The translations under genes and the position numbers were made by a program. Shown piece after piece: positions 6,522 through 18,899 of a DNA stretch of 45,413 nucleotides. Each line of letters starts with the position of its first letter. The stretch's first letter is position 1. The stretch is taken from IMG/VR virus record IMGVR_UViG_3300050821_007995, positions 1 to 45,413 of that record; one strand, given 5' to 3'. The DNA comes from a virus. Under the pieces are notes generated by a model. That model saw only the letters and a program-made list of their open reading frames with translations, was not told where the DNA came from and ran no database searches.

Positions 6522-6755
6522 ATGAGGTTCTATACCGATCCGGCGCGCGAGGCAGACAGCTATTCTCTACCGGACGCCGAAGTCTTTTACATAAACAAGA
6601 CTGAGCGTCGCATCCATGCTGGTTACGACAATGATCCTGGCGAGCCAGGCTGGTACTATTGGTATTGCTTTCCCGGCTGTCTGCCAGATAGCGACCCGAT
6701 CGGACCATTCGCGAACGAAGCGGAAGCTATTGTCGATGCAAGGGAGAACGCATGA
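6522..6755 (+). CDS. Hypothetical early protein (77 aa)
   Basis: ATG at 6522 after a strong AAAGGAGGAGGAAGC site. Aromatic-rich centre (PGWYYWYCFPGCLPDSDPIG) followed by the phrase GPFANEAEAIVDARE. The pattern G-P-F-x(2-4)-EA-x-A at the end is shared by many small phage and bacterial proteins of unknown function. The stop overlaps the next start (ATGA). Confidence 0.75.
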   Translation: MRFYTDPAREADSYSLPDAEVFYINKTERRIHAGYDNDPGEPGWYYWYCFPGCLPDSDPIGPFANEAEAIVDARENA

Positions 6756-6922
6756 CTTACACTGTATCACCCTGCCCTTGCGGCCATCGTGCCTGTCGTA
6801 ATTGGCACGTAAGCTGGGTTGCAAGCGTCCAAGGCGTGCGCTTCACAGAGGCGCAGGCGCGTGCCGTAGCAGCGTTGCTGAACAAGATGGAAAAGGAGGA
6901 GCCTTCGGCCTTCGACTCTTGA
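6752..6922 (+). CDS. Small Cys-rich early protein (56 aa)
   Basis: The ATG at 6752 overlaps the stop of the previous gene (ATGA), indicating coupled translation. The N-terminus has a compact Cys/His set (CPCGHRACRNWHVS), and the rest is a short strand and a helix (FTEAQARAVAALLNKME). It resembles small phage proteins in which a Cys knuckle precedes a strand-helix unit; the function is unknown. The promoter at 6919-6948 begins within its stop codon. Confidence 0.7.
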   Translation: MTYTVSPCPCGHRACRNWHVSWVASVQGVRFTEAQARAVAALLNKMEKEEPSAFDS

Positions 6923-6948
6923 CAAACCATGGGCCTTCGGCCTATAAT
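6919..6948 (+). promoter_or_regulatory. Consensus sigma70 promoter
   Basis: TTGACA (6919-6924), 18-nt spacer, TATAAT (6943-6948): both boxes match the consensus fully. It lies directly upstream of the gene at 6983. The spacer contains GGCCTTCGGCC, a short self-complementary element. It is the best promoter match found by eye in the window. Confidence 0.85.
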
Positions 6949-6982
6949 CTTACCGTTAACCCCTCAGCCTGAAAGGCAAACA

Positions 6983-7573
6983 ATGGCAACCGAGACAGAA
7001 GGAAAGCGTATCCGTATTGCGCGCTCAAGCGTGGACGGCGCGCACTGCGTGACGAAGTTTTACGTAGGCGACGAGCCGGGCGCATGGCCCGTGCTTCGCA
7101 CAGACACGAGTGCGTACTCCGATCGCATTCAGCATGAGCTAGCCGCAACCGGCCTCGCATACCTGCAGACGCAAGCGTACGCAGGCGAGACACAAGACCC
7201 AGAAGTGGCCATGTCGCTCGTGCGTGCATTGCATACATCACTTAACGATGGCACATGGCAGCCCGGCCGTGTCGGCGACGGCAGCGGCAGCGGACCAACA
7301 GAGTTGGTCCTCGCCCTAGAGCGCGTGCTCGCGAAGAACCACGTTGAGAAGCCGGGTGAGTACCAAGAGTACACTCGCCAGCAAATCGAAGACATGGTCG
7401 AGCCCATGACACCCGCCGAGAAGCGCAAGCTTCACGCCGATCCGGCCCTTGCAGGCGCTATCGCGGACATTCGCATGGAGAAGGCCCGCAAGCTTAAGGC
7501 AAGCGTGAAGGGCAAGCCTGCTGGCGCGCTCGGCGCACTCTTTGGCAAGCCTTCACTGCAAGCGGCAGAGTAG
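6983..7573 (+). CDS. Hypothetical early protein, strongly promoted (196 aa)
   Basis: The start at ATG 6983 is preferred (AAAGG upstream); an upstream in-frame start at 6929 would lie inside the promoter. The protein is soluble and rich in Ala, Lys and Glu. It has a central Gly/Ser linker (GDGSGSGPTE), then a helical region (RQQIEDMVEPMTPAEKRKLH) and a basic C-terminus (KARKLKASVKGKPAG). No catalytic motif is recognised. The consensus promoter in front and the hairpin behind (7596-7617) suggest a separately expressed, abundant early protein. A DNA- or host-protein-binding role is possible but unproven. Confidence 0.75.
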   Translation: MATETEGKRIRIARSSVDGAHCVTKFYVGDEPGAWPVLRTDTSAYSDRIQHELAATGLAYLQTQAYAGETQDPEVAMSLVRALHTSLNDGTWQPGRVGDGSGSGPTELVLALERVLAKNHVEKPGEYQEYTRQQIEDMVEPMTPAEKRKLHADPALAGAIADIRMEKARKLKASVKGKPAGALGALFGKPSLQAAE

Positions 7574-11013: not shown

Positions 11014-11198
11014 TGATAGAATTAGGGCCAAAGTTCTACTGCGACAAATGCCATTTTAGTCATACGCCAGAACATGGTTGTTATAGAGGAACGCCACCAT
11101 GCCAGAAGCCATCTTTCCAGCCGTCATCGACAATACAATCCGTTCCGACTTCAAAGCCTGCGAGCATCAGTGGTTCAGGCGGCACTGCCAAGGGCTGA
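11013..11198 (+). CDS. Small Cys-containing protein overlapping the nuclease gene (61 aa)
   Basis: ATG at 11013 is coupled to the previous stop. The first 30 residues hold a Cys/His set (FYCDKCHFSHTPEHGC). The remaining half is Ser/Pro/Gly-rich and lies in a different frame over the first 100 nt of the nuclease gene, so that part may be unconstrained. Possibly a minimal zinc finger; the call is moderate. Confidence 0.5.
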   Translation: MIELGPKFYCDKCHFSHTPEHGCYRGTPPCQKPSFQPSSTIQSVPTSKPASISGSGGTAKG

Positions 11199-12067
11199 CG
11201 CCTAAGTCTACGCTAAACCTACACCTGCATTTCGGCGGCTGCTTCGCCAGAGGGTTAGAGGTAACGCGGAAGACTTACCATGCGCATGGCGCCAGCGAAT
11301 ATTCAATCTTAACCGGCGCGCGGGCGGCGCTCGGCGCCTGGGGCGACTACGAAATGCCAGACGTGCCGCCGCCTGCGGCCTATAAGACACCTCAAGCATT
11401 GCTTGACGCTCTCTTTTCTTACTTCGTAGAGTATCCGCTCGCCACTGATCGCATCCGGCCGCTCAACCTTGGTGACGGCCCTATAGTTGAAACAAGCTTC
11501 GCCGTACCCATTCCCGGCTGCTATCACCCGGTCAGTGGCGAGCAGCTGACCTACTCTGGCCGCTTTGATATGGTCGGGACCATCGGTTCAGCCGTTTGGG
11601 TAGTCGATGAAAAGACCAGTTCCCAACTCGGCGATCGCTGGCGGGATAAATGGTCACTAGACGCCCAGCCAACTGGTTACTGCTGGGGCCTTCGCCAATA
11701 CGGGCTTAGCCCCGTAGGGGCTATTATCCGAGGCATTGGTATTCTCGGACGTGACATCACCTTCGCCGAAAGCATACAGCCCAGGTCTCCCTGGCAAATC
11801 GACCAGTGGCTCCATCAACTAATCGCTGATGTAGAGCGTATGACACAATGCTGGTACGAGTATCAAGACATACTCAGTCACGAGATGCCAGAATGGACAC
11901 TAAGCGATCCTGAAGGAGCTGCCTTCCCTCGCGCTTTAGATAAAGACATTTGCCACGCCTACGGCCACCCATGCGCCTTCGTCCCCCTGTGCTCTTCAAA
12001 CACACCAGAAGCATGGATGGACGAATACATCGTCAAGCACTGGGACCCTTTAGCAAGGAAGGAGTGA
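11099..12067 (+). CDS. PD-(D/E)XK exonuclease, RecB/Cas4-like (322 aa)
   Basis: ATG at 11099 with GAGGAACG upstream. The core of a RecB-family nuclease is visible: GRFDMVG around residue 155, then VWVVDEKTSS (the D-x-K catalytic part) and QPTGYCWGLRQY (the Q-x-x-x-Y motif). Cysteines near the N-terminus (CEHQWFRRHC) and at the C-terminus (CHAYGHPCAFVPLC) are placed like the iron-sulfur ligands of Cas4/AddB-type enzymes. It is followed by a Sak4-like ATPase and a probable ssDNA-binding protein, a trio known in phage recombination/replication modules. Likely role: DNA end resection for recombination-dependent replication. Confidence 0.85.
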   Translation: MPEAIFPAVIDNTIRSDFKACEHQWFRRHCQGLTPKSTLNLHLHFGGCFARGLEVTRKTYHAHGASEYSILTGARAALGAWGDYEMPDVPPPAAYKTPQALLDALFSYFVEYPLATDRIRPLNLGDGPIVETSFAVPIPGCYHPVSGEQLTYSGRFDMVGTIGSAVWVVDEKTSSQLGDRWRDKWSLDAQPTGYCWGLRQYGLSPVGAIIRGIGILGRDITFAESIQPRSPWQIDQWLHQLIADVERMTQCWYEYQDILSHEMPEWTLSDPEGAAFPRALDKDICHAYGHPCAFVPLCSSNTPEAWMDEYIVKHWDPLARKE

Positions 12068-14003: not shown

Positions 14004-15806
14004 TTGTCTATCCGCTGCCTAATTGTTGGAGAAGCCTACGGCGCGCAGGAAGAAGAAGCTGGAGCGCCCTTCGTAGGCGCCTCCGGCATTGAACTCAACG
14101 AGGAGCTTGAAGATGCAGGATGGCTGCCTGACGGCACAGCAAAAGAAATCAATCGACACTTATATAACGCAGCTAACGGACGTGAGAGCTGGTCTAACGC
14201 GGTTGCTTTACGAGATAGGATATTCCGAGAGCACGGGCTCGTCCTTACCAACGTCGTCAACGCCCGACCTCCTGGAAACAAAATTGAAGCTTGGTTCCTC
14301 AACGTCACTGATGGACGGAAGTCTGGGTTACCTCCAGTTCACGATCTTTGGCCAAACACCATTATCCGCGAGGGAACGCGTCAGCTTCAAGATGCTGTGC
14401 GAGCAAGCGAGCCTAGGCTTGTGCTCTGCCTTGGTGCAACGCCGCTTTGGGCCATTGGAGGTAGAAGTGGCATCACGAAGTGGCGAGGAAGTAGCCTCTA
14501 CTCGGCTCCGGGTTTCCTCCCTGGGGATCAGCAAGTTGCCATCGCCTGCACCCTCCACCCAGCCGCCGTCCTCCGAGACTGGCCCTGGCGACCCGTCGTC
14601 GTCCATGACCTAAAGCGAGCGCTTCATGAAACCGACTATCCTACACCTGAGCCTGAATGGCAGTTTACAGTCCGACCAGCACTATCCGATACATTGGACT
14701 ATCTTGCGGATCTCTGTCGAGGGAACGGAGACGCCCCTTTGGTCTCCGACATCGAAACAACTGGCGGACATATTACGTGTATTGGCTTTTCGGATGGACC
14801 CGGACGGGCCATCTGCATTCCCTTCCTCGACCCCGGCTCCGCCGACGGAAATTACTGGCGAAGCGCCAGAGACGAAGAGCTGGTTACATTCGCCATTCGA
14901 AGAGTTCTTCGGGGACGAAGAATAGTCTTCCACAACGGCCTTTACGACATGCAAGTCATCCAATCCGATTGGGGCTTTAGCCCCAATTGGACGGATGACA
15001 CAATGATCGCGCAGCACGTGGCATTTCCTGGTATGCTCGGCGCCGGCCTCGACCCCATCACCGGGAAAGCCTCCAAGAAAGGATCAAGTCTTGCCCTCAG
15101 CTTCATTGCCAGTATGTATTGCGCCCAATACCGATACTGGAAAGACGACGGTCGTTTGTGGGACCCTACCATTACAGACGCAGAAAGCTATTGGCGCTAC
15201 AATTGCGAGGACTGTGCCCGGACGTTTGAGTGTCTCACAGCTCTATTGTCCATTTTGCGAGAAGCAGGCTTACTTGATCAATATGCATTCCAATGTCGCG
15301 AACTTGGACCTGCCACCCTCCGAATGATGCGGCGCGGTCTCCGATGCGATATGGAGCTGCGCTCCATGCAACTCCGCAGCACGCGCACCCAACTCCACGA
15401 TATCGAGCGCCGCCTAGAATACATTCTCGGCCACCCCTTCAACCCACAATCCGCCCCGCAAATGAGGAAGCTCTTCTATGAAGATCTTTGTTGTCCACCC
15501 CAATGGAACGGTAGAGGGGAAGCTCGTACCCTCTCATGTGATGACGAGGCACTGGCGAAGATGGGGATGGTCAGACCATTCCTTCAGCCTCTTATCCAGC
15601 GGATTAGCGATTATCGCACACTCAGTGTTCTTGGAGGCAAAGCGACAGGCAGTTCGAAATCCATACTTACCTGCCGTTTGTCGGAAGACAATCGCCTCCG
15701 CACCACGCTCGGCCTATGTGGCGCAGAAACCTTCCGCTATGCCTCCGGCCCTACCGCTCAAGGCGAAGGCTGTAACTTACAGAACATCCTCAAGGTGAAC
15801 GAATGA
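14004..15806 (+). CDS. polA (N-part): Split family A DNA polymerase, N-terminal subunit with UDG-like and 3'-5' exonuclease domains (600 aa)
   Basis: TTG start at 14004 with GGAGGG 7 nt upstream. Residues 1-200 resemble a family 4 uracil-DNA glycosylase: GEAYGAQEEEAGAPFVG, then LTNVVNARPPGNK, then LHPAAVLRD. Residues about 245-420 are a DEDDy proofreading exonuclease: VSDIETTGG (Exo I), FHNGLYDMQ (Exo II) and YNCEDCART (Exo III). Then come thumb/palm elements (FNPQSAPQMRKLF and SDYRTLSVLGG), ending at ETFRYASGPTAQGEGCNLQN followed by ILKVNE and a stop. The Pol I equivalent LQNIPVRNE continues directly into motif A, but here the gene stops. The remaining palm and fingers are encoded at 16891-17661. 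UDG-like domains fused to phage family A polymerases are known. Confidence 0.9.
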   Translation: MSIRCLIVGEAYGAQEEEAGAPFVGASGIELNEELEDAGWLPDGTAKEINRHLYNAANGRESWSNAVALRDRIFREHGLVLTNVVNARPPGNKIEAWFLNVTDGRKSGLPPVHDLWPNTIIREGTRQLQDAVRASEPRLVLCLGATPLWAIGGRSGITKWRGSSLYSAPGFLPGDQQVAIACTLHPAAVLRDWPWRPVVVHDLKRALHETDYPTPEPEWQFTVRPALSDTLDYLADLCRGNGDAPLVSDIETTGGHITCIGFSDGPGRAICIPFLDPGSADGNYWRSARDEELVTFAIRRVLRGRRIVFHNGLYDMQVIQSDWGFSPNWTDDTMIAQHVAFPGMLGAGLDPITGKASKKGSSLALSFIASMYCAQYRYWKDDGRLWDPTITDAESYWRYNCEDCARTFECLTALLSILREAGLLDQYAFQCRELGPATLRMMRRGLRCDMELRSMQLRSTRTQLHDIERRLEYILGHPFNPQSAPQMRKLFYEDLCCPPQWNGRGEARTLSCDDEALAKMGMVRPFLQPLIQRISDYRTLSVLGGKATGSSKSILTCRLSEDNRLRTTLGLCGAETFRYASGPTAQGEGCNLQNILKVNE

Positions 15807-15844
15807 TGAGAAACTCCGTAACGGTTATGTTTGAAGGAGAAATA

Positions 15845-16021
15845 ATGGCTACAGTTGAGGTAGAATTTTTAGGTAATGGAAAGGTAGCCATACACTTACC
15901 AACTAAAGGATCAGTATCAACGCCTTGGAACGAGAGTTCACCGATAACACCAGCACCCTTACCACACTACGATAAGCTAATTCTACCCATGTCGGCATTT
16001 TTCCATACGAGGATAGCATGA
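15845..16021 (+). CDS. Small protein inside the split polymerase locus (58 aa)
   Basis: ATG at 15845 with a strong AAGGAG site; a start at 15803 that overlaps the polymerase stop is also possible. Begins ATVEVEFLGNGKVAIHLPT (two strands), then Ser/Pro-rich. It is the first of three genes between the polymerase halves. Coupled to the next gene by ATGA. Function unknown. Confidence 0.6.
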   Translation: MATVEVEFLGNGKVAIHLPTKGSVSTPWNESSPITPAPLPHYDKLILPMSAFFHTRIA

Positions 16022-16314
16022 CCATCTCCCCAGAGAACTACCTCCACTGCAACAGCGACAACTGGATTAGCGTCCGGAGCGCCGATGGCGTTCTACTCGG
16101 CTGTATCCCTGGGCCCCCTCCGCAGGAGGATTGGCTCCCTGCTCCCCCTCCTCTCGGCAACGTTGAGGTACGCGCCGCCCTAATGTATTGCCTCGTGCCA
16201 ACTGCAGAGCAGCTGCCACTGCTTCACAGCTGGCCCGGCTTCATCCCAGTCACACCGGGGCCGAAGGCGGCTTTGCCGCCTGGCGACCAATCCGACCTGG
16301 GCCAAGCACCATGA
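16018..16314 (+). CDS. Small Pro-rich protein inside the split polymerase locus (98 aa)
   Basis: ATG at 16018 (ATGA overlap) and stop overlapping the next start (ATGA). Begins TISPENYLHCNSDNWISVRS, followed by a strand VLLGCIPG and Pro-rich loops (PPPQEDWLPAPPPLG). The last third (HSWPGFIPVTPGPKAALPPG) is also Pro-rich. No enzymatic motif. It is possibly a small adaptor joining the split polymerase parts, which is speculation from position only. Confidence 0.55.
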   Translation: MTISPENYLHCNSDNWISVRSADGVLLGCIPGPPPQEDWLPAPPPLGNVEVRAALMYCLVPTAEQLPLLHSWPGFIPVTPGPKAALPPGDQSDLGQAP

Positions 16315-16889
16315 CAAACGCAGGCCACTGTATGCCTACGGTATCGGTAGATATGCGGGGACATCTCTTTCTAGACACAGAAACGACCGGCGTCGGGCCG
16401 GACGCTCGGATGGTTAGCATTGCCGCTCAACTTGACCTAAACGGAGAGCCTGGCTGGCGCTTTCACTATCTCATCCAACCTACATTCGACATCCCCTCCG
16501 GGGCAACAGCCATTCACGGGATAAGCACCCAAGTCGCGCGAGACTTCGGCGTTCCGTGCGTGCAGGCGTTAAGCTCAATCGCGTCCCTCTTTAACTCGGG
16601 CCATGATATCAAGCTAGTCGGTCACAATATCGACTATGACCGGCGCATCCTCGCCTACGAGGCAGAGCAATTCGGTCATATACTCCACTGGCCTCAATCC
16701 AACTTCTGCACAATGAGAGTGCTTAGCCCATACGTATGTTCAAACGGTAAGCGGCCTAAGCTTGGCGAAGCCTATATTTGGATGTTTGGCCATCCGCCGC
16801 TGACGGAACTCCACAGCGCCCGTAGCGATATGCTAGCCTGCCGAGAAATCTTCTACGAGGGCGCTAGGCGAAAGCTATGGCAGCTATAA
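16311..16889 (+). CDS. DnaQ-like DEDDh 3'-5' exonuclease between the polymerase halves (192 aa)
   Basis: ATG at 16311 overlaps the previous stop (ATGA). All three exonuclease motifs are visible: HLFLDTETTGVGP (Exo I, D-x-E near residue 20), LVGHNIDYDRRIL (Exo II, near 110) and HSARSDMLACREI (Exo III of the epsilon type, His and Asp near 170). The length matches bacterial DnaQ/epsilon-type proofreading domains. The polymerase N-part already has its own exonuclease, so this locus encodes two. It could be an extra proofreading subunit, a nuclease for host DNA degradation, or a moron gene. The next gene starts 1 nt after the stop and has no ribosome site of its own. Confidence 0.88.
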   Translation: MTNAGHCMPTVSVDMRGHLFLDTETTGVGPDARMVSIAAQLDLNGEPGWRFHYLIQPTFDIPSGATAIHGISTQVARDFGVPCVQALSSIASLFNSGHDIKLVGHNIDYDRRILAYEAEQFGHILHWPQSNFCTMRVLSPYVCSNGKRPKLGEAYIWMFGHPPLTELHSARSDMLACREIFYEGARRKLWQL

Positions 16890-16890
16890 C

Positions 16891-17661
16891 ATGCAACTTC
16901 CAGTCCTCCGGCGCCTAATCATTCCTGACCCAGGAATGACCCTTCTCGATCTTGACCTAAGTGCGGCTGACGCTCAGGTCGTTGCCTGGGCCAGTGATGA
17001 CACGTTGCTAAAGCGACAGCTCCGCTCCGGCACCGACCTCTATATGGAAACAGCAACGGGCCTCTGGAGCGAATGCGCTCACGTCCCCCGCAGTCGGCGC
17101 AAGAACTGCGTTCACTCTGCCGACTATGGCGCAAGCTACAAGACTATCGGAGATAAGTATATAGGAGACCGCTATGTTGCAAAGCGTTGGCTTAATAAGT
17201 GGTTCACTCTCCACCCACGCGTTCGCGCTTGGCAAAGGCAAGTCGAATTCTCCCTCCAAAGCAGCCGAACTATTGCAAACCCCTGGGGCTTTCGCCGTGT
17301 TTACACCGATCGTCTCGATTACATTCTTCCCCAGGCTCTAGCCTGGATAGGACAATCAACCGTCGCGATTACGATCAACAAGATCCTATTGCGTGTAGAC
17401 CATGCCCATGAACACGAGGACCTTCCAATCGAGCTACTCCTCCAGGATCATGACAACTTAGTGATGCAGTGTCCAACGAACCAACTGAACGAGGCGGTAC
17501 CGCGCCTGCTAGAGTTGGCCAAGGTTCCGATCCCTTTTCCCGACCCACTAATCATCTCCGCGTCGTTGAAGACGAGCGAGCGAAGCTGGGCGGACGTGGA
17601 ACCGGTCTTCCTTCACGAGTTCAAACTCAAGGAACTCAGCGTCACTTTCCCGACTGGATAG
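16891..17661 (+). CDS. polA (C-part): Split family A DNA polymerase, C-terminal catalytic subunit (256 aa)
   Basis: ATG at 16891, 1 nt after the exonuclease stop, no clear ribosome site, so coupled translation is likely. Begins QLPVLRRLIIPDPGMTLLDL, which continues the Pol I sequence exactly where the N-part stops. Motif A is LDLDLSAADAQVVAW; the O-helix (motif B) is RSRRKNCVHSADYGASYK; motif C is LLQDHDNLVMQ. Catalytic Asp residues of A and C and the Arg/Lys/Tyr of the O-helix are kept. The residue matching E. coli Phe762 is His, Glu710 is Asp and Glu883 is Asn. The last 193 nt overlap the helicase gene in another frame. Confidence 0.9.
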   Translation: MQLPVLRRLIIPDPGMTLLDLDLSAADAQVVAWASDDTLLKRQLRSGTDLYMETATGLWSECAHVPRSRRKNCVHSADYGASYKTIGDKYIGDRYVAKRWLNKWFTLHPRVRAWQRQVEFSLQSSRTIANPWGFRRVYTDRLDYILPQALAWIGQSTVAITINKILLRVDHAHEHEDLPIELLLQDHDNLVMQCPTNQLNEAVPRLLELAKVPIPFPDPLIISASLKTSERSWADVEPVFLHEFKLKELSVTFPTG

Positions 17662-18899
17662 AAGAATATATCAATGTCCTCGCGCCGAATAGTGAGGCCC
17701 CTGAAAAGTTTCACTTCTGGGTGGCGGTTAGTACAATCGCAGGGGTTCTACGACGGAGGGTATGTATTGATCAAGGAACCTTCAAATGGTACCCTAACTT
17801 CTACATTGTTCTTGTTGGAGAGCCAGGCATCGTTAAAAAAGGCACTGCTATTAAGACTGGCTTGCGTCTCCTTAGGGATATCCCTGGGGTCTCTATTGGA
17901 AGCGATGTGGCCACGTGGCAAGGCTTCCTCAAGCAGCTCGAAGAAAGTATCGACAGCTTCGCCATAGGCGATGGCCCGCTTGCATTCCGCAAGCACGTTA
18001 CAACCAATGCCCTAACCATCCCAATAACCGAATGGGGCACATTCATCAACCCAGAAGACCCGATCATGATTAACATGCTCACAAAACTATGGGATTGTGA
18101 AGATGGGATCAGCCTCTCTAAGACTACACTTACTCAGGGAGACATTACTATCATCAACCCTTTTGTCAACATGCTGGCCGCTACGACCCCGACCTGGATG
18201 CGAGATAACATTCGAACACAGTTTGGGGGATGGGGCCTTAGCTCTCGCATCATATTTATCTTCGCCTCGCGTCCGGCGCGGATCGTTACCTTCCCCGACG
18301 AACTCCAGACGGCCAAGCTTCTAGCTGAGCGTTTGGCCCCACTCAGCACTGATCTTCTTGCTATCAGTAAACTACGAGGCAACTTTGAAATCACGCAGGA
18401 CGCTCGCGCTTTTGCTAAACAATGGAACAGCTCTCATGTCGATCGCCAAATCAATCTTGCTTCACAGCCTGACCATAACCCTTGGCTTAGTTATTTTCTT
18501 GCTCGCAAGCTTGACTATAGCTTTAAATTGGCTATTGTGCTGGCCGCTGCTCGCCGTTCAGAGCTGGTTATTGACTATCCTGAAATCACTGACGCCATCG
18601 CACGAATGGACGAAGTCGAGGGAGAAATGCGGAACATCTTTGGCGAGCGGGAGCGAATGGCTCCGGCGGCAGCAAGCGCCGCCGCCAGAGTGAATAATGC
18701 CGCTTGGGGCCCCCTCCACCTCGCCCTTAAAGCAAACCCCCGCCTCCCCGCTTCCGTCACCCAAAGCTTCCTCGCCCGCTATATGGACTTCCGTTCTGCA
18801 AACGACTTCATGTCCCAGCTCGTCAGCATGCAATACCTTACCCGCGAGCAAGACATCGATGGGCTTTGGTGTACCCTCGGCTCAAAGGCGGAACCCTAA
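17469..18899 (+). CDS. DUF3987-like replicative helicase/ATPase (476 aa)
   Basis: GTG start at 17469 inside the polymerase gene; no later ATG, GTG or TTG precedes the conserved FPDWIEEYINVLAPNSEAPE, so a true 193-nt overlap is likely. The core has YIVLVGEPGIVKKGTAIK near residue 115, a variant Walker A of the kind seen in phage DUF3987-type helicases, then a TIPITEWGTFI strand, DITIINPFVNMLAATTP, and an arginine-containing WGLSSRIIFIFASRP. The C-terminal part is helical (APAAASAAARVNNAAWG). No primase or zinc domain is attached. Likely the replicative helicase, partner of the split polymerase. Last gene of the rightward arm. Confidence 0.8.
   Translation: MSNEPTERGGTAPARVGQGSDPFSRPTNHLRVVEDERAKLGGRGTGLPSRVQTQGTQRHFPDWIEEYINVLAPNSEAPEKFHFWVAVSTIAGVLRRRVCIDQGTFKWYPNFYIVLVGEPGIVKKGTAIKTGLRLLRDIPGVSIGSDVATWQGFLKQLEESIDSFAIGDGPLAFRKHVTTNALTIPITEWGTFINPEDPIMINMLTKLWDCEDGISLSKTTLTQGDITIINPFVNMLAATTPTWMRDNIRTQFGGWGLSSRIIFIFASRPARIVTFPDELQTAKLLAERLAPLSTDLLAISKLRGNFEITQDARAFAKQWNSSHVDRQINLASQPDHNPWLSYFLARKLDYSFKLAIVLAAARRSELVIDYPEITDAIARMDEVEGEMRNIFGERERMAPAAASAAARVNNAAWGPLHLALKANPRLPASVTQSFLARYMDFRSANDFMSQLVSMQYLTREQDIDGLWCTLGSKAEP

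Follow-up and report, generated by a model that had tools for sequence, protein, structure and literature searches.

Replicative polymerases that are split have so far been regarded as curiosities, mainly of family B. In Aeromonas phage 25, the two chains of a split family B polymerase, 43A and 43B, co-purify and are active (PMC2988022). The only family A case that we found in print is that of the OM43 phages MEP401 and MEP402 (Zobellviridae), where an intron was suspected by the authors (PMC10580990), and in a survey of 6,560 PolA proteins "split" refers to a cut in the tree only (PMC11348598). Here we describe a family A DNA polymerase gene of a 45,413-base virus record (IMG/VR IMGVR_UViG_3300050821_007995, positions 1 to 45,413, analysed whole and called the window below), which is divided into two open reading frames (ORFs) with other genes between them, and compare it with the same gene in its relatives.

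The N-terminal polymerase ORF (14004-15806, + strand) encodes 600 amino acids and starts with a TTG codon that has an AGGAGG box upstream. It comprises a UDG-superfamily domain (amino acids 4-193; PF03167, E 3.7e-12), a 3'-5' exonuclease, and the thumb and the start of the palm (amino acids 458-595). The exonuclease motifs DIETT, HNGLYD and YNCED, at amino acids 249, 310 and 399, supply the DxE, D and YxxxD residues of this activity, and D249, E251, D315, Y399 and D403 are invariant in 28 N-part sequences. The C-terminal end reads NLQNILKVNE, the last residues being ...GCNLQNILKVNE, in such a way that the seam (15774-15806, + strand) consists of the codons for this peptide followed by a TGA stop that overlaps, as ATGA, the first ATG of the next ORF. 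The UDG-superfamily domain at the polymerase N-terminus (14004-14582) is also present in fused relatives.

The C-terminal polymerase ORF (16891-17661, + strand) encodes 256 amino acids with the rest of the palm, the fingers and motifs A, B and C. It begins with MQLPVLRRLIIPDPG, directly followed by motif A (D22, D27), and motifs B (K71, Y79) and C (H187, D188) come after it. Residues D22, K71, Y79 and D188 are invariant in 45 sequences, and matches to PF00476 (E 1.4e-18) and to phrog_17 place the protein in family A. The AlphaFold2 model of the C-part alone had a predicted local distance difference test score (pLDDT) of 92.1, and Foldseek matched it to the palm and fingers of KlenTaq and Bst Pol I.

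A preliminary description of this locus had proposed that the polymerase is cut at one exact seam and that nothing seems lost or duplicated there, and both points were borne out. The N-part covers positions 555-985 of the phrog_17 model ("DNA polymerase", PHROG) and the C-part positions 996-1234, and the respective ranges in the PF00476 model (Pfam) are 9-131 and 141-352; since the matches of the two halves are complementary, no sizeable loss or duplication has occurred at the seam. Through a fused relative aligned to Klenow, the seam peptide corresponds to around residues 675-684 of E. coli Pol I and the cut to around 684-687. With motif A of the E. coli enzyme anchored at its catalytic Asp705, the cut lies about 20 residues before it. 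The model of a fused relative (L009; pLDDT 89.8) resembles Klenow, and its seam (residues 525-548) is a coil and the stretch of lowest confidence. In terms of this model, the gene cut would fall in a loop of the palm, and a large interface would remain to hold the halves together, so that they may well assemble.

A second record, IMGVR_UViG_3300020580_000032, shows the same polymerase arrangement and differs at 2 of 16,768 nt (99.99% identity), which rules out an assembly error, a concern raised in the preliminary description, and the split of the window is a real arrangement.

In order to place it among its relatives, sequences were drawn from IMG/VR, GTDB contigs and GenBank phages, and the best 80 of 393 viral matches were classified. 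The sample is centred on the C-part homologues of the window itself, and its split proportion is no census of all phages. Both halves were present in 116 distinct loci; 45 of these are fused, and 71 are split no further than 11 codons from the seam of the window, a recurrence that is far above chance. Every split N-part stops 1-11 codons beyond the conserved block, and the gaps between the halves range from -4 to 2,899 nt. In four loci there is no insert, with halves overlapping as ATGA (L008, L032) or by 1 nt (L014, L027). The C-parts of split loci start with ATG in 64 of 70 cases, carry new N-terminal extensions such as MVAxTIxLPN, and are preceded by a Shine-Dalgarno (SD)-like box in 45 of 70, compared with 11 of 44 at the corresponding place in fused genes. 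Five contigs of metagenome-assembled genomes, likely phage, came from the genome-contig scan, with both split and fused states among them.

On a 114-row tree, 12 changes between the split and fused states are needed, 8 of them forced by well-supported branches, whereas shuffled labels need 35; within clades the state has thus lasted long, and yet it has changed repeatedly. A 71-row tree gave 8 changes, 5 of them forced in the same manner. In one clade (starred on the tree) 27 of 28 rows are split. The tree does not tell gain of the split from its loss, but at least one split is derived, because Klenow-type polymerases are fused. Separately from these, Caulobacter phage Kuura (L084, 4827-8231) and a further locus (L085, 1727-4364) have a family A polymerase in separate ORFs that is cut elsewhere, between the exonuclease and the thumb.

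The nearest relative (L082), with around 70-76% protein identity, is split at the same seam (...NLQNILKVKE-stop; MQLPVLRRLIRPDPG...). In comparisons of the window with it, the nonsynonymous (dN) and synonymous (dS) divergences were 0.243 and 1.031 for the N-part and 0.181 and 3.071 for the C-part, the latter dS being near saturation. These values indicate that both halves are under purifying selection.

The codons at the seam may themselves favour the split. Codons such as AAG GGA GAT GAG GAA TGA constitute an SD sequence directly before the ATGA, and for split loci the mean energy of pairing to the anti-SD is -7.5 kcal/mol at the seam, whereas control windows taken from those genes give -3.0 (L014 and L027 being mis-anchored in this comparison). 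Fused loci gave -6.1 against -3.2 kcal/mol. When compared with synonymous recoding, from which L014 and L027 were excluded, split seams exceeded the expectation (-7.56 vs -6.13, p = 5e-7, an optimistic value as the rows are related), and fused seams, likewise from related rows, did not (-6.09 vs -5.70, p = 0.30). Thus, the peptide predisposes the gene to carry an SD sequence, and split genes have been tuned further. One could speculate from this on a built-in breaking point, where the K-G-D/N/E-E codons of the seam act as a ribosome binding site, phages repeatedly split their polymerase there into two co-translated subunits and re-fuse it, and genes affecting the replication machinery are housed in the gap (proofreading exonuclease, dUTPase, ribonucleotide reductase); we put this forward tentatively, as somewhat less probable than its contrary.

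In the window, the gap contains two small ORFs and a DnaQ-like exonuclease gene, as the preliminary description had stated. A 72-aa ORF (15803-16021, + strand) is AT-rich, with a G+C fraction of 0.417, within the lowest 0.55% of equal windows, and its true start may be the ATG at 15845, which follows an AGGAG box. It is followed by a 98-aa gene with no function assigned (16018-16314, + strand), which is conserved in the nearest relative (65% amino acid identity, dN 0.29, dS 1.38), values that mark it as a real gene, and by a gene for a DnaQ-like DEDDh 3'-5' exonuclease of 192 amino acids (16311-16889, + strand) that matches phrog_192, "DNA polymerase exonuclease subunit" (E 2.7e-32). All these genes had been described as coupled through ATGA overlaps, which holds for three of the four junctions (N-part to 72-aa ORF, 72-aa ORF to 98-aa gene, 98-aa gene to exonuclease), but the exonuclease and the C-part are joined as TAAcATG, with a 1-nt gap. 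Scans of viral contigs for exact peptide patterns matched the same phage only, both for the 72-aa ORF and for the exonuclease, and for the 98-aa gene they matched additionally the nearest relative, this gene not having been found in more distant split relatives; consequently, these scans tell little about the function of the gap ORFs. A sequence search of the PDB with the DnaQ-like protein gave no match. A DnaQ homologue lies inside the polymerase gap in L002, and upstream of the polymerase, outside the gap, in L015 and L073. The gap of the nearest relative, of 730 nt, contains an NrdR-like zinc ribbon together with the homologue of the 98-aa gene, and has these in place of the 72-aa ORF and the exonuclease.

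Across the split relatives, the longer gaps are mostly 80-100% coding, with lower values in L055, L031, L038 and L082. The list of gap ORFs has a minimum of 40 amino acids, and very short genes may be missed in three loci of one clade (L050, L063, L065), whose gaps of 380-450 nt have little or no coding capacity and in which neither an intron nor a gene was identified. Among 76 gap proteins there are 8 dUTPases, 4 large subunits of ribonucleotide reductase, 3 nucleotide kinases, 3 DUF3310 proteins and 2 DnaQ exonucleases (those of the window and L002), with single cases of a methyltransferase, SNase, Lon_C, a YfbR-like protein, a DnaJ-type zinc domain and HNH_3. The clusters of gap proteins are mostly small or singletons, and the genes are mostly not common to the split relatives. 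With genes so varied, the gap behaves like a site into which replication-related cargo is inserted and unlike one mobile element. The UDG domain of the polymerase, taken with dUTPase as the commonest gap gene, suggests a theme of uracil handling. In another observation, the gap protein of L044 (6991-7485) has a DnaJ CXXCXGXG zinc domain, and it may be related to the DnaJ-type zinc domain that the polymerases of HMO-2011-type phages hold inside the polymerase (PMC9038755).

These results bear on what had been proposed for the genes between the halves. The same seam split was found again in relatives, but the gap genes mostly differ from one relative to another. A role of the small proteins as linkers was considered and rejected, given that the insert genes vary by phage and are mostly unshared among split relatives, that some phages have none, and that the 72-aa ORF was found in this phage only. 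The alternative proposal, that they are remnants of the insertion, fits poorly, as most identifiable gap genes are ordinary genes of replication or nucleotide metabolism.

The best reading of the locus is a two-subunit polymerase, as the preliminary description had proposed, and one produced by gene fission with its halves translated separately; to this reading we assign a probability of roughly 0.87. The split itself, the fact that 71 loci share one seam (with abutting halves in four of them), the selection on both halves, the invariant motifs, the mostly coding inserts, the strength of the seam SD in the family, and the failure of the tests applied to find an intron or a seam intein all agree with it; the assembly and activity of the pair, and its origin by fission, are what we infer from them. 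A family A replicative polymerase would thus be made from two cistrons and assemble non-covalently, with the UDG-like and proofreading exonuclease domains, the thumb and the beginning of the palm on the N subunit, and the fingers and motifs A, B and C on the C subunit. Gene fission inside the palm loop would have generated the two cistrons, the codons of the seam peptide (I/L)PKG(D/N/E)EE doubling as an SD sequence, in such a way that a stop and a start at that place would be enough to give a downstream cistron. The gap of such a gene could then take in co-translated genes of replication or nucleotide metabolism, in the window the two small genes and the DnaQ-like exonuclease. Several points weigh against this reading. 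The SD of the window's own seam is weak (-4.1 kcal/mol, with 34% of the control windows as strong), no clear SD box precedes its C-part, which means that coupling to the exonuclease gene has to be assumed, the relatedness of the sequences makes the p-values of the SD tests optimistic, and a non-canonical intron could still reside in the gaps of L050, L063 and L065.

An intron of group I, group II or another kind, spliced from the mRNA so that one polymerase chain is made, has in its favour that phage DNA polymerase genes are commonly interrupted by introns, that one was suggested for phages MEP401 and MEP402 (PMC10580990), and that a few loci have ORF-free stretches in their inserts. However, Rfam scans of the window and nine related loci found no intron and hence no intron RNA core, the inserts are mostly coding genes that differ and are unrelated, and in the loci whose stop and start overlap directly (L008, L032, L014, L027) there is no room for one. 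The N-parts stop within 1-11 codons of the seam, and the C-parts have start codons and new N-terminal extensions of their own and, in 45/70, SD-like boxes, all of which make an intron quite improbable. Joining of the halves by a split intein through protein trans-splicing is even less likely, and close to negligible. Inteins do occur at other sites of this polymerase family: L008 has, besides its seam split, an apparent one after YN|C in exonuclease motif III (around 6640-7400), and L071 (8468-9363) and L073 (8471-9363) have apparent ones at PQ|C...TGN|S in the C-part, again besides the seam split. These cases show that the method was able to see inteins, but there they form continuous ORFs, and none was found at the seam when the N-part ends and C-part extensions of the split loci were inspected. 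The 1-11 codons after the conserved block are too few for an intein N-half, and in the short extensions of the C-parts no C-half was recognised, with motifs judged by eye.

A decaying, broken polymerase gene, as might be thought from the stop codons and the 1.1 kb of other genes that interrupt the coding sequence, is equally hard to sustain. In both halves dS is several-fold above dN, the aligned split relatives show no variation at the catalytic residues, large clades such as that with 27 of 28 rows have retained the split, and the window record contains no family A polymerase beyond the split pair (families B and C had no search of their own). A different question is how the split originated. 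A free-standing homing endonuclease could have cut the gene repeatedly at a conserved site and been replaced later by other genes, an origin compatible with the two-subunit polymerase and known for phage nrdA, as well as considered in the case of gene 43 of Aeromonas phage 25 (PMC2988022). The target would be a conserved motif, and there is an HNH_3 gene in the gap of L015. Nevertheless, only 1 of the 76 gap proteins is a recognisable homing-type nuclease, none lies in the gap of the window, and several splits have no insert at all, so that we consider this origin unlikely, although clearly less so than an intron.

With respect to its surroundings, the replication module of the window is on the + strand, and the terminase, portal and major head protein genes are on the - strand. 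A gene for a primase/helicase-like protein (phrog_14296; 17469-18899, + strand) adjoins the 3' end of the C-part, and its ORF overlaps that end by up to 193 nt (17469-17661). A similar overlap is seen in L082, where the primase ATG is at 11082 and the C-part ends at 11247.

In this sample, the split state is that of the majority of relatives (71/116, in a set centred on the window), always in one palm loop and with repeated changes. Our search of the literature, with subscription journals outside its scope, found no description of a recurrent seam, of insert-less cases, of the cargo or of a ribosome binding site at the seam. The many natural pairs allow one to ask how an essential enzyme tolerates a cut beside its active site and how its halves meet, and also if co-translation delivers the neighbouring genes to the replisome. 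They advise caution in annotation pipelines, as half-length PolA genes are not necessarily pseudogenes, and offer natural split points for engineering.

In comparison with known systems, Vibrio phage vB_VspS_VS-ABTNL-3 (MF497422) is split at the same seam, with one 184-aa gene between the halves and overlapping starts, but its insert is other than that of the window; no published comment on this split was found in the literature searched. MEP401 and MEP402 resemble the window in having an exonuclease with the N-terminal PolA part, a small ORF and the C-terminal PolA part, an order present also in most related metagenomic genomes (PMC10580990), and the window has likewise two ORFs with complementary PolA parts and other ORFs between. 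Unlike the window, they lack the UDG domain and a DnaQ gene in the gap, and their cut lies around 15 residues downstream, directly before motif A (gp13 ends ...LQNFDGEIKTLFLSRYGE, gp15 starts MILNADAKALE), because of which their split is probably an independent event. The archaeal PolB of Methanobacteriales and Nanoarchaeum equitans are also naturally split replicative polymerases, but they are cellular and of family B, and in Nanoarchaeum parts of an intein are attached to the halves, which could be trans-spliced, in contrast to the intein-free seam of the window (PMC4104785). The nrdA gene of phage Aeh1 offers another case of a phage enzyme whose coding region is cut and whose separate chains are active, although the enzyme is a different one and the cut is tied to the mobile endonuclease gene mobE (PMC2988022). 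Finally, 43A/43B of Aeromonas phages 25 and 44RR form a phage replicative polymerase in two chains with variable intergenic material, of family B and with a seg endonuclease or untranslated sequence as the insert (PMC2988022), and by analogy with the pair of phage 25 the two halves described here would be expected to constitute an active polymerase.
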